A stretch of DNA of 64,000 nucleotides. Origin: a bacterium. Its GTDB lineage: Bacteria; Hydrothermota; DG-26; JAUXAN01. Positions 10,247-59,165 of this stretch are shown piece by piece. A program made the position numbers and the translations under genes. Below the pieces are notes generated by a model, which was not told where the DNA came from, searched no databases, and saw nothing but the letters and a program-made list of their open reading frames with translations. Positions within the stretch are counted from its first letter, which is position 1. Each line of letters opens with the position of its first letter. The stretch covers positions 1 to 64,000 of the forward strand of contig JAUXAN010000003.1 in assembly GCA_030619885.1 (NCBI GenBank). The letters run 5' to 3'.

Positions 10247-11297
10247 TTTCTTTAGCTTAATCGAACACTCTGTCGTAAGAAATTTATTCTCTTTTCTCTA
10301 TCCATTTTCTCTTCTTTATTCTATTCTTGTAAGGATCTGGCTTCTGTTGTATAAGCAAAATATTTTTAAAAAAGAGAGACTGCCAGGATATGTGGTCAGT
10401 GTTGGTAATCTTACACTTGGAGGAACAGGAAAGACTTCCTTCTGTATCTACATAGTAGATGCGTTGAAGAGAACGGGACTGAAGGGGGTGATTCTTTCTC
10501 GGGGTTACAAGGCAAAAAGAAAAATGGGCCTCGTCCGTCCAGACGACAATCCAAGAAATTACGGTGATGAACCTGTGCTTTTGGCTCGCAAAACAAAAGT
10601 CCCGATAATAATTGGCAAAGATAGAGTAAAAACAGGGAATGAAGCACTCGGTAGATTCAATCCTGATGTGTTACTGCTTGACGATGGATTTCAATATCTG
10701 AAATTGGACAGGGATTTAGATATTTTACTCATAGATATGACCTCTCCTTTTGGCTATAGTAAATTTCCACCCTGCGGTCTATTGAGGGAGCCACTTTCGA
10801 GTATCGCACGCGCAGATGTGGTCGTCCTCGCAAGAGCGAATGATGTTGCAAATAATCGCTATCTCTTTGTGAAGATAAAAAGACTGAATCCCAATGGACT
10901 GGTTATCAAATCAATCCACTTCCCCACAACCCTTTACAATATGAGATTAAAAAGGAATTTTCCACTCTCTTACATAAGAGGGAAAAGAGTTCTCGCATTT
11001 TCAAGTATTGGAAATCCAACTTCTTTCATACGGACACTCTCTCATCTCGGTGCAAATGTAGTAAAAGAACTACCGTTCCCAGACCATCACTTTTACAAAG
11101 AAACCGATTTTAAAAAGATTGAACGGATTGCGAGTCAGTGTAGAGCTGACATGATCGTTACTACAGAAAAGGATGGTGTAAAAATTCAAATTCCTTTCCA
11201 GGCCTTCGTTCTTAAAGTAGAGACAAAAATCATCGAGGGGGAGGAGAGTTTTTTTAATCTCTTTTTCCAAAAATTGAAGTCCCAATCCTCACCATAG
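10233..11297 (+). CDS. lpxK: Tetraacyldisaccharide 4'-kinase
   Basis: SVGNLTLGGTGKTSFCIYI, LSRGYKAK, GDEPVLLARKTKVPIIIGKDRV, LLDDGFQYLKLDRDLDILLID. Confidence 0.93.
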   Translation: MHSLNFFSLIEHSVVRNLFSFLYPFSLLYSILVRIWLLLYKQNIFKKERLPGYVVSVGNLTLGGTGKTSFCIYIVDALKRTGLKGVILSRGYKAKRKMGLVRPDDNPRNYGDEPVLLARKTKVPIIIGKDRVKTGNEALGRFNPDVLLLDDGFQYLKLDRDLDILLIDMTSPFGYSKFPPCGLLREPLSSIARADVVVLARANDVANNRYLFVKIKRLNPNGLVIKSIHFPTTLYNMRLKRNFPLSYIRGKRVLAFSSIGNPTSFIRTLSHLGANVVKELPFPDHHFYKETDFKKIERIASQCRADMIVTTEKDGVKIQIPFQAFVLKVETKIIEGEESFFNLFFQKLKSQSSP

Positions 11298-11937
11298 ATG
11301 AGCCTTCTTCTATTGCAACTTCAAAATCAGAACTCATTCCCATAGACAGATGTTTGAGTTCGATTCCTGCTTCTTCAGCATCTCGTTTAAGATTTCTCAG
11401 AGTTTTAAAACAAGGCCTTACCTGCTCCGGGTAGGGCGTGAAAATCCCAATCGTCATAAAACCTTTAACCCGTATGTTATCGAAACTGCGTATCCTTTTT
11501 AAAAATTTAACCGTTTCTTCAACTTTTAGACCATATTTCGTCTCTTCTTTTGAAGTATTTACTTCTACCAATACATCTAATACCTTCCCAGCATTCGATG
11601 CCCTTTTTTGAATCTCTTCTGCCAACCTTATACTATCTACTGACTGAATCATCTCAAAGAGTTCAATCGCTTTCTTTACTTTATTCGTTTGCAGATGACC
11701 AATCATATGCCATTTGACACTCTCTTTGATGGATTCGTATTTACTCAGCGCCTCCTGAACCCTATTTTCGCCAATGATGTTGATCCCACATTTCACCGCC
11801 TCTTTGATTCTATCTGGAGGAACATTTTTCGTTGCGGCTATAAGAGTGATCTCTGCTGGCTCTCTACCAACTTTTTCACAGGAGTTTTTTATTCTTTCCC
11901 TTACCTCTTTCAAATTTTCTTCGATTGTGTTATCCAT
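11254..11937 (-). CDS. YggS/PROSC family pyridoxal phosphate homeostasis protein
   Basis: LIAATKNVPPDRIKEAVKCGINIIGENRVQEALSKYE, WHMIGHLQTNKVKKA, LSMGMSSDFEVAIEEGSSMVRIGTSIFG. Confidence 0.93.
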   Translation of the reverse strand: MDNTIEENLKEVRERIKNSCEKVGREPAEITLIAATKNVPPDRIKEAVKCGINIIGENRVQEALSKYESIKESVKWHMIGHLQTNKVKKAIELFEMIQSVDSIRLAEEIQKRASNAGKVLDVLVEVNTSKEETKYGLKVEETVKFLKRIRSFDNIRVKGFMTIGIFTPYPEQVRPCFKTLRNLKRDAEEAGIELKHLSMGMSSDFEVAIEEGSSMVRIGTSIFGKRD

Positions 11938-11995
11938 ATCGCCACCGTAATTTAAAAGATATAAAAATTATTTGACAGGATTAACAGGATTTTTA

Positions 11996-12210
11996 TTCAA
12001 AAAACATTTTAATAGGACGCAGATTTCCGCAGATTTATTTCACGTTTAGTACCAAGATAATTTTTTCTGATATATCCTTTTAGATCCTGAAAATCTGCGT
12101 TCACCCCGTTAGAAAGGAGGAAACCAAATGAATTATTTCCTTTCACCTTATAAACAAATTTTCTAACGGGGTTCATCTGCGTCCCTATTTCCAAAATGAC
12201 TTGTATATTA
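11996..12210 (+). mobile_element. MITE-like element, copy 1 (adjacent to tmRNA 3' end)
   Basis: Begins TTCAAAAAACATTTTAATAGGACGCAGATTTCCGC (identical to 57360-57394); ends ...GGTTCATCTGCGTCCCTATTTCCAAAATGACTTGTATATTA; imperfect terminal inverted repeats (CATTTTAATAGGACGCAGAT / ATCTGCGTCCCTATTTCCAAAATG) and inner CCCCGTTAGAA/TTCTAACGGGG inverted repeat. Confidence 0.75.
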
Positions 12211-12214
12211 TAAA

Positions 12215-12557
12215 TGGAGGCGGCGGTATTGAAACCGCGTCCAGAGATGAAGATATAGAAGTTACTACATGTTTAGCCCTATTCTATTCTCATCCCTCCG
12301 TTTCTATAGAGCAAGAAACGGAGAGACCAGCTTTATTAAATTCTTGCCCCATCCTCTAAAGCGAAGGATTGAAGCCAGTCTGACTAACCTGTCCACTCTT
12401 TGCCCATCAGACGAGGCAAAGGGGACTTGGCCGCTCATCCTTAGGCAGCCAGAGCATAGTTGTTGGCAGTTATTTTGCTTTCCGTTTTTTAACGAGCGAA
12501 CGGATGCTCGACATGCAACTTCTATCCCTTCCATCCCTGTCGAAACCTTTCGCCCCC
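12215..12557 (-). ncRNA. ssrA: tmRNA (ssrA), tag ending ...ANNYALAA
   Basis: Minus strand: GGGGGCGAAAGGTTTCGACAGGGATGG..., tag ORF end AACTGCCAACAACTATGCTCTGGCTGCCTAA, 3' TGGACGCGGTTTCAATACCGCCGCCTCC-A; acceptor pairing includes the Ala-type G3-U wobble. Confidence 0.95.
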
Positions 12558-57274: not shown

Positions 57275-57359
57275 GGAGGGCTAGTCCTAACCGGTAAGGC
57301 AGCGGATTTGAAATCCGCCGGGTTTTATACCCATGGGGGTTCGAATCCCTCGCCCTCCG
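57275..57359 (+). tRNA. tRNA-Ser(UGA)
   Basis: Acceptor GGAGGGC/GCCCTCC, discriminator G, anticodon stem-loop GCGGA-TTTGAAA-TCCGC, long variable arm CGGGTTTTATACCC, T arm GGGGGTTCGAATCCCTC; CCA not encoded. Confidence 0.93.
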
Positions 57360-57706
57360 TTCAAAAAACATTTTAATAGGACGCAGATTTCCGCTGATAA
57401 TCGCGGATTTTTTTATTACTTTCTCAAATTATTAAATGTCTTATGCTTCTGCTTTAGGATAAGTTCAGTAGCAAACCGACTTCTTCTAAAAATCCATATC
57501 CAAAGGTATTATAAACATTGTAGAGGGTTTTAATAATCTTTTCAGTTAGATTTGTATATTTAAGATCCTAAGAATCTGCGTTCACCCCGTTAGAAAGAAC
57601 GGGGAGAGGAGTTTCTTCTAATGAATTATTTCCATTTATCTTAAATGAACTTTCTGACGAGGTTCATCTGGGTCCCTATTTTTAGAATGACTTACATATT
57701 ACATAA
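57360..57706 (+). mobile_element. MITE-like element, copy 2 (adjacent to tRNA-Ser 3' end)
   Basis: Same 35-bp left end as copy 1, shared AATCTGCGTTCACCCCGTTAGAAAG core, similar right end GTCCCTATTTTTAGAATGACTTACATATTA; larger internal segment. Confidence 0.7.
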
Positions 57707-57710
57707 ATCC

Positions 57711-59165
57711 CTATTTAGAATGGATCGTTCTTAACGCTTCAAGTACCTTTGGGTCGTATGCTTTACCGCTTTCGAGTTCCAATTTTTTTTCTGCTTCCTC
57801 AGGGGAGAATTTATCCTTGTAGATATACTCATCGTATGCATTGGCAACTGCAATGATTCTCGAACCGATGGGTATCTTTTCCCCCTTCAACTTACTGCGG
57901 CAACTCCCGTCCCATCGCTCATTTATATACCTGATAATTGGTTTCGACGTCCCAAGAAATCTTATTGGCGATATGATCTTCTCAGATATGGATAGATACT
58001 CTCCTTGTGGCGTAACAATTTTGCCTATGTCGTGAAACATCGCTGCATATTTGATTGCAGAGATTTCACCTTCGGGCACACTCAGTGCATATGCGAGTTC
58101 CCATCCAAGATTCGCTACCCTTTCTGAATGCTCTTTCATCTCTTTGTCAAGCGCTTCCTCAATCGACATCAGAGAAAGGGATGCTTCAAAATAACTCTTC
58201 TGCAGGGAATTGAACAGCAGAGAGTTCTGTAAAGCGATACTTGTAGCCTGCGAGATGGTTGATAAAAATTCAAGGTCACTCTCGTCAAAATTCTCCCCAT
58301 CCGTCCTGTCTGCTACACAGATTATTCCATAAGTTTCATCCTTTTCCTTCAATGGAGAACAGGCAAATATCTTTTCAGGCTCGCCAAATTTCACAAGCAT
58401 TGCTTCTCCCAGAGGAATAACCGGGGCAAATTCGCTTTGAGACAGCGAGAGTCTGGAACCTCTGGGAAGCAATTTATCAATTCCTATACTCGATTTTACG
58501 AACAATTGATTACTTCTTACTTCAGAGAGCATTAGAACACCCCCAGTGGTCTCCATAGCTTCAACCGTCATCTTTACAGAGGACTCGAGGAGTTTTGTCA
58601 AGTCTCTCTCTAAAAGTAATTGTCCCATCAAATGGTTCAGTTTTGTCAATGCGTTTTTTTTCTTCTCCAATTTTTTATCTACCCTTGCCTTCTCGTCTGC
58701 AAGCTCGGCATGTGCCTGCTCAAATTCATAATTCGTCTCCTGTAATTTTTGGGATAAATCTGTAAGTTCTTCGAGTAACGCTTTCTTTTCTTTCAGCGCA
58801 TTTCTTTTGTCCAATGCATTTCTCACCAACGATTTTATCTGTGACTCCTCGAATGGTTTTAAAATGTAGTCGTATGCCCCCAGCCTCAAAGCCTCGGTCG
58901 AAGTCTCTAAGGATGCATATCCTGTTATCATTATCACCTGAATATCTGAACCTACTTCCTTTATCGCTTTCAAAATCTCCATTCCTGACGGATCGGGAAG
59001 CATTATGTCTAAAAGGACTACATCGAGAGATTTCTCAATAGACTCCAACCCATCTGAAGCGGTCGATGCTGTTGTTACCTCGTAATCTTCTGCAAACAAC
59101 TTTGTAAGCAATTTCAGAACAGTATCTTCGTCATCCACAATTAACAGTCTTGGTTTATCTGCCAT
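57711..59165 (-). CDS. Response regulator with GAF and degenerate HD-GYP-like output domain
   Basis: LLIVDDEDTVLKLLTKLF, VVLLDIMLPDPSGMEILKAI, ITGYASLETSTEALRLGAYDYILKPF; GAF region; HSERVANLGWELA, FHDIGKIVTPQGEYL, YINERWDGSCRSKLKGEKIPIGSRIIAVANAYDEY. Confidence 0.88.
   Translation of the reverse strand: MADKPRLLIVDDEDTVLKLLTKLFAEDYEVTTASTASDGLESIEKSLDVVLLDIMLPDPSGMEILKAIKEVGSDIQVIMITGYASLETSTEALRLGAYDYILKPFEESQIKSLVRNALDKRNALKEKKALLEELTDLSQKLQETNYEFEQAHAELADEKARVDKKLEKKKNALTKLNHLMGQLLLERDLTKLLESSVKMTVEAMETTGGVLMLSEVRSNQLFVKSSIGIDKLLPRGSRLSLSQSEFAPVIPLGEAMLVKFGEPEKIFACSPLKEKDETYGIICVADRTDGENFDESDLEFLSTISQATSIALQNSLLFNSLQKSYFEASLSLMSIEEALDKEMKEHSERVANLGWELAYALSVPEGEISAIKYAAMFHDIGKIVTPQGEYLSISEKIISPIRFLGTSKPIIRYINERWDGSCRSKLKGEKIPIGSRIIAVANAYDEYIYKDKFSPEEAEKKLELESGKAYDPKVLEALRTIHSK

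Follow-up and report, generated by a model that had tools for sequence, protein, structure and literature searches.

The two repeats that abut stable RNA genes in the window, that is, the whole 64,000-nucleotide stretch of contig JAUXAN010000003.1 analysed here, are very probably dead, internally deleted single-gene cassettes, which consist of an open reading frame (ORF) for a GxxExxY protein between two inverted repeats (IRs) and which settle behind genes. What we observed of these cassettes comprises their anatomy, their homology, a rule of position and orientation, a series of decay states and a spread across phyla.

Anatomy and homology of the window copies

Copy 1 (11996..12210, minus strand in the cassette sense) lies between the tmRNA gene (12215..12557, minus strand, tag ANNYALAA; ARAGORN, and Rfam RF00023 with 1.2e-70) and a co-directional YggS-like ORF (11254-11937, minus strand; named by eye), downstream of and co-directional with the tmRNA and separated from its 3' end by 4 nt. 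Copy 2 (57360..57706, minus strand) begins with its ORF-end side at 57360, the base after the tRNA-Ser(UGA) gene (57275..57359, plus strand; ARAGORN and Rfam), while its ORF-start side is faced, at about 15 nt, by the 3' end of a response-regulator-like ORF (57711..59165, minus strand; named by eye). An earlier note on this DNA had described IR-bounded repeats without a transposase of their own that recur at the 3' ends of RNA genes and have TIR-like ends and an internal CCCCGTTAGAAA stem in common, and all of this holds for both copies. The ends common to them are TTCAAAAAACATTTTAATAGGACGCAGATTTCCGC and TTCATCTG[CG]GTCCCTATTT; the TIRs are imperfect (CATTTTAA--TAGG-ACGCAGAT versus CATTTTAAAAATAGGGACGCAGAT), and the outer ends are soft, conservation fading across about 10-20 nt. 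No tyrosine integrase was found inside the copies, and inspection by eye of their far side did not show the tRNA 3' end repeated there. A second repeat, TTTGACAGGATTAACAGGATTTTTATTC (11973-11998), adjoins copy 1 and several other copies, and an inverted arm that matches it, AATCCTGTTCATCCTGTCAAA, lies downstream of some copies flanked in this way.

Three longer copies in the same genome carry an ORF antisense to the orientation used in the earlier note. This interior ORF matches PF13366 PDDEXK_3 (1.6e-41) and TIGR04256 GxxExxY (2.6e-40); the intact copies are members of this family (TIGR04256/PF13366) above the curated cut-off, with the E...D...ExK residues present, and the window copies, as fragments, fall below it. 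The repeat end itself supplies the codons for the N-terminus of the ORF (MNADFQDFKYKDITEKII...), reading GGACGCAG-ATG-AAC-GCA-GAT-TTT-CAG-GAT. The left IR arm (GGACGCAG-ATG-AAC-GCA-GAT) contains the start codon, and the right arm provides the C-terminus together with the stop codon (for example, AAT CTG CGA AAA TCT GCG TCC TAA, with the C-terminus NLRKSAS*). In a BLASTN comparison with the intact cassette C4:52316-52880, copy 1 aligned at 90% over 141 columns (1e-53) and at 91% over 34 columns (4e-10), with 358 bp of the cassette absent between the two blocks. Copy 2 aligned with the intact cassette at 75.6% over 205 columns (1e-38) and at 78% over 127 columns (1e-24), and again the middle is absent. 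Since both window copies are two blocks of an intact cassette with the middle missing, we take them to be dead GxxExxY cassettes. They are thus better described as deletion derivatives of a GxxExxY gene cassette (BLASTN, PF13366/TIGR04256) than as orphan MITEs of an IS.

The remaining parts of the cassette can be followed along the minus strand of each copy. In copy 1, the ORF-start-side IR AAATAGGGACGCAGATGAACC (12170..12190) contains the ATG (12176-12174), a remnant of the GxxExxY N-terminus (NADFQD...; 12056..12103) reaches the internal deletion junction, and the ORF-end-side IR lies in the AAATCTGCGTCCTATTAAAATGTT region (12001..12034; end motif and BLASTN against the intact cassette). In copy 2, the ORF-start-side IR (57661..57681; motif match and BLASTN against the intact cassette) includes the ATG (57667-57665), and the ORF-end-side IR (57377..57409; end motif) reads TAGGACGCAGATTTCCGCTGATAATCGCGGATT on the plus strand. 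The remnant between them, which matches TIGR04256 with an E-value of 9e-4, reads NGVNADS*DLKYTNLTEKIIKTLYNVYNTFGYGFLE followed by EVGLLLNLS, about 214 bp being missing at this junction; since NLTEKIIKTLYNVYNTFGYGFLE is followed directly by EVGLLLN, the deletion fused the part with the GxxExxY motif to the C-terminal part.

Both copies also contain a nested hairpin. In copy 1 the CCCCGTTAGA...TCTAACGGGG hairpin (12104..12171, no strand assigned) is bounded by TTCA/TTCA, a flanking seen at the nested hairpin only, and forms an in-frame insertion just after the ATG on the minus strand; it splits AATCTGCGTTCATCTGCGTCC, which is uninterrupted in other copies. Copy 2 has a CCCCGTTAGA-type hairpin at the same position (57585..57662, no strand assigned). 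The short ATGAATTATTTC frame that had been thought conserved between the copies belongs to this hairpin. It differs in length (12 codons in copy 1, 7 in copy 2), is not in fact conserved and does not represent a gene; the opposite strand carries the frame that matters, which is part of the deleted GxxExxY gene. There are 45 strict copies of the CCCCGTTAGA...TCTAACGGGG hairpin in the window's genome (G000; e.g. C5:42242-42268 and C10:10276-10302), several of them outside any cassette, and a similar hairpin occupies the equivalent spot of the cassette start region in other genera.

In a set of 106 GxxExxY proteins, conservation of the catalytic-type residues E23, D62, E72 and K74 reaches 98-100%. 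Between close copies, synonymous codon changes exceed non-synonymous ones, so the GxxExxY protein has been kept. We found no relatives of this protein in the PDB or in defence-system libraries. The window's genome harbors three further GxxExxY genes at C37:7318-7665 (L301), C4:49443-49790 (L300) and C32:21617-22351 (L305), among which one has CACGAAACACACGAAAA arms, one has CCACGGATTTCACAGATT arms and an internal TAG, and one is an armless, fused double GxxExxY gene.

Position and orientation of the cassettes

We scanned the whole genome (2.46 Mb in 86 contigs) with the end motifs and found the left end at 64 places and the right end at 28, compared with 0-1 for a reversed control pattern; a looser scan of genome stretches gave 34 right ends. 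Of 31 cases in this genome, 23 have the ORF-start end directed at a gene 3' end, mostly that of a CDS, at a distance of at most 40 nt in 21, and where this end faces a gene start it is never closer than 55 nt. By flank arrangement, 48 of all copies are turned toward a gene 3' end, compared with 18 that are not (p = 3e-4). For intact cassettes, the upstream neighbour has the direction of the cassette in 73/84 cases in the phylum (p ~2e-12) and in 25/27 cases in other phyla (p ~6e-6), the p values being calculated against the ~50% expected from random insertion orientation; since 57/71 neighbouring gene pairs in these genomes are already co-directional, this rule is strong solely against random insertion. 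The IR arm starts at a median of 28 nt behind the host gene, and in 27/59 cases within 20 nt; the order at the junction is the host-gene stop or the tRNA end, often 0-20 nt, and then the IR that holds the start codon. Both window copies follow the rule: for copy 1 the host is the tmRNA, toward which its ORF-start end points, and for copy 2 the host is the CDS 57711-59165 (minus strand), with tRNA-Ser at the other end of the copy. The opposite orientations of the two copies relative to their RNA genes, as noted earlier, arise because the ORF-start end of copy 2 abuts the convergent CDS 57711-59165 and not tRNA-Ser.

Stable RNA genes are nevertheless used more often than expected in this genome. 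In 7/47 stable-RNA genes (those beside the two window copies and five other tRNA genes), an element core is located no more than 60 nt from the 3' end, compared with ~34 contacts at the 3' ends of an assumed ~2,200 CDSs, so that the genome-wide tabulation gives an association beyond chance (odds ratio 11, p = 1.5e-5). In other genomes, cassettes stand directly behind tRNA-Leu (L352 and L372), tRNA-Met (L407 and a congener) and tRNA-Ser. However, of the copies retrieved first from other phyla, only 1/98 is near a tRNA, and tRNAs make up 3/73 of the co-directional upstream neighbours of GxxExxY genes phylum-wide. tRNA ends are thus used and enriched in this genome, and they are not the defining target; of the preference for tRNA-like 3' ends put forward in the earlier note, the enrichment here stands, while the preference itself extends to the 3' ends of genes of any kind, mostly CDSs.

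Spread in the phylum and beyond

GxxExxY genes above the cut-off are present in 77 of 147 genomes of the phylum. We scored an IR by a local alignment score of at least 13 at loci with enough flank, a cut-off chosen after the control distribution had been seen (its 99th percentile is 12). Under this criterion, IRs flank 71/86 GxxExxY loci in the phylum versus 1/393 spacing-matched controls, where gene calls are plain ORFs and some of the loci are mutual orthologues; a preliminary set of 32 GxxExxY loci gave a similar picture. Outside the phylum, we considered 20 named genomes reached via a cross-phylum repeat scan (Desulfobacterota, anammox Planctomycetes, Anaerolineae, Omnitrophota, Nitrospinae and others); GxxExxY is present in 17 of them, and IRs were found at 22/28 loci versus 0/128 controls. 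The IR sequences vary by locus (CGCAGATGAACGCAGAT, CCACAGAGnnCACAGAG, CACGAAnnCACGAA and CACCAAGnnCACCAAG), and a tandem layout is common to all. We found no published account of GxxExxY as an IR-bounded cassette in the literature covered, which was mostly non-subscription, and such an account may exist.

Turnover at orthologous sites

At orthologous sites in related genomes, most of whose flanks are 95-100% alike within a genus, we encountered intact, MITE-like, type-switched and empty states. For instance, the locus L404 holds an intact cassette in G144, a MITE-like stump in G146 and no element in G145, the junction of this empty site being too diverged for alignment. In G036, the locus L409 carries a cassette whose IRs are of another type and whose ORF remnant gives a weak TIGR04256 match (E 0.1), and the element at the tRNA-Met site has its interior inverted. 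The tmRNA loci of 40 relatives, the nearest of which belong to the same class only, were left out of the empty-site comparison. Contigs C74 and C77 of the window's genome look as if a single tRNA locus were represented by two haplotypes (99.6% over 264 bp and 93% beyond). They constitute a filled/unfilled pair, in which a 341-bp element is present on one, and of the outer end the C77 allele retains about 24 bp. The near-identical tRNA pieces at C74:1-264 and C77:2054-2317 suggest a strain mixture in the assembly. Neither a target-site duplication nor a clean excision was demonstrated in the filled/unfilled pairs (C74/C77 and the orthologous sites), and the orthologous sites show decay and turnover without a clean transposition event.

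Four-helix-bundle cassettes and 23S rRNA intervening sequences

A different small gene occurs between ends of the same kind. At C77, the same TIRs enclose a four-helix-bundle gene (PF05635, the 23S rRNA intervening-sequence protein), and for PF05635 loci in the phylum IRs are present at 18/28 versus 1/119 controls, with a co-directional upstream neighbour in 24/25; many of the arms of these cassettes are 7-nt tandem repeats. Four-helix-bundle cassettes also stand between tRNA-Ser(UGA) and tRNA-Ser(GCU) at L451 and L452, in genomes of two families. In Coxiella, the intervening sequence (IVS) has tandem GACAGAT heptamers ahead of the ATG and is excised by RNase III (PMC4990558). The 23S rRNA IVS is similar to our cassettes in that it is a selfish-looking unit of ~0.4-0.5 kb with one small ORF, in its tandem-repeat inverted ends forming a stem, and in its sporadic distribution and decaying ORFs (PMC4990558); the IVS-like stem, with inverted repeats around a small ORF, is present in the cassettes. 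It differs from them in being located inside the 23S rRNA, whereas the cassettes are instead located behind genes, tRNA and tmRNA, and in that the main ORF of the cassettes encodes a PD-(D/E)XK protein. In our reading, the GxxExxY and four-helix-bundle cassettes are sisters, both variants of a single kind of unit.

By analogy with the IVS, the cassettes may act at the RNA level: RNase III would cut out the IR stem, the insertion would be harmless, and spread would proceed via DNA repair or RNA. The PF05635 gene within the same TIRs, the IR cassettes with 7-nt tandem arms and the Coxiella precedent all speak for such elements. However, the cassettes examined lie behind genes and not inside rRNA, so excision is not needed for host function, and we regard this explanation as a serious one that falls somewhat short of even chances.

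Other explanations of the repeats

The repeats could alternatively be ordinary MITEs that are moved by the transposase of an IS, acting in trans on the GGACGCAGAT ends, with GxxExxY as a passenger. Such a view accommodates the TIR-like ends, the many internally deleted copies and the scarcity of intact GxxExxY genes relative to the dozens of copies. However, a transposase is enclosed by 0/64 of the left ends inspected, and the parent in this genome carries GxxExxY; the arms are at most 700 bp apart, absent, or, in two cases, placed around other genes (a nucleoside diphosphate kinase, named by eye, and a DRT-type reverse transcriptase, a PADLOC match). Moreover, the IRs diverge widely between GxxExxY loci while the gene is constant, which is unlike an IS family, and no target duplication was seen. 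We consider trans-mobilisation unlikely and rejected an IS parent, as none was found between the cassette ends. A fragment of a DRT-type reverse transcriptase (RT_UG34, 1.2e-73) is found at C41:39427-40840, about 100 bp from one copy.

Somewhat less probable still is that the repeats are retained terminators or 3'-UTR hairpins, which would persist through a role of the IR hairpin in ending or processing the transcript of the host gene. In agreement with this, the elements are positioned behind genes, and copy 1 folds stably in the tmRNA sense (-63 kcal/mol, z = -6.0). However, the better U-tract, CCCTATTTTT, is on the strand that reads toward the host gene and not away from it, for which reason we rejected the terminator model; in addition, the fold of copy 2 is less distinctive (z = -2.2 and -3.25), and the conserved nuclease ORF is left unexplained. 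A MITE that specifically targets tRNA-like 3' ends, as the earlier note read the pair, is improbable and was rejected, since CDS 3' ends adjoin most copies here and the association fails in other phyla, the contacts with stable RNA genes described above notwithstanding.

A possible mode of spread

Reading the repeats as GxxExxY cassettes, we propose that a cassette settles immediately behind a gene, usually in the same direction, so that its promoterless ORF would be read from the transcript of the host gene, as its orientation suggests. tRNA and tmRNA genes serve as hosts as well, and internal deletion converts cassettes into MITE-like stumps; the cassette would spread as a selfish mobile unit. 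The window elements are like MITEs in being short, non-coding, TIR-bounded, internally deleted and multicopy and in having no transposase of their own, but they differ from them in that the cassette parent carries GxxExxY rather than a transposase, the cassette ends are coding, and no target-site duplication is shown. Promoterless ORF cassettes are also known as integron gene cassettes, and group IIC introns insert behind genes in a fixed orientation; the former have attC and an integrase and the latter an intron RNA and a reverse transcriptase, whereas the interior of the GxxExxY cassette has none of these. The Rpn/YhgA 'PD-(D/E)XK nuclease family transposases' belong to the same nuclease superfamily and have been linked to recombination, but their Pfam families differ from that of GxxExxY. 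The GxxExxY nuclease may itself cut target or donor DNA, leading to copying of the cassette; we put forward such self-mobilisation tentatively, as the least certain part of the proposal and a possibility with rather less than even odds.

If our interpretation of the repeats is correct, anonymous intergenic repeats in several phyla are footprints of one kind of gene cassette. More tentatively, the GxxExxY cassettes and their four-helix-bundle sisters might represent an undescribed class of mobile element, in which a PD-(D/E)XK gene with its start and stop in the terminal IRs copies itself co-directionally behind genes, and which might have given rise to a considerable part of the 'CACAGATGAACACAGAT'-type repeats between genes in environmental bacteria. 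On our interpretation of the repeats, the hitherto unexplained GxxExxY family gains a genomic niche and a connection with the intervening sequences of 23S rRNA. The small nuclease and the defined ends also allow the movement of the cassette to be tested directly.
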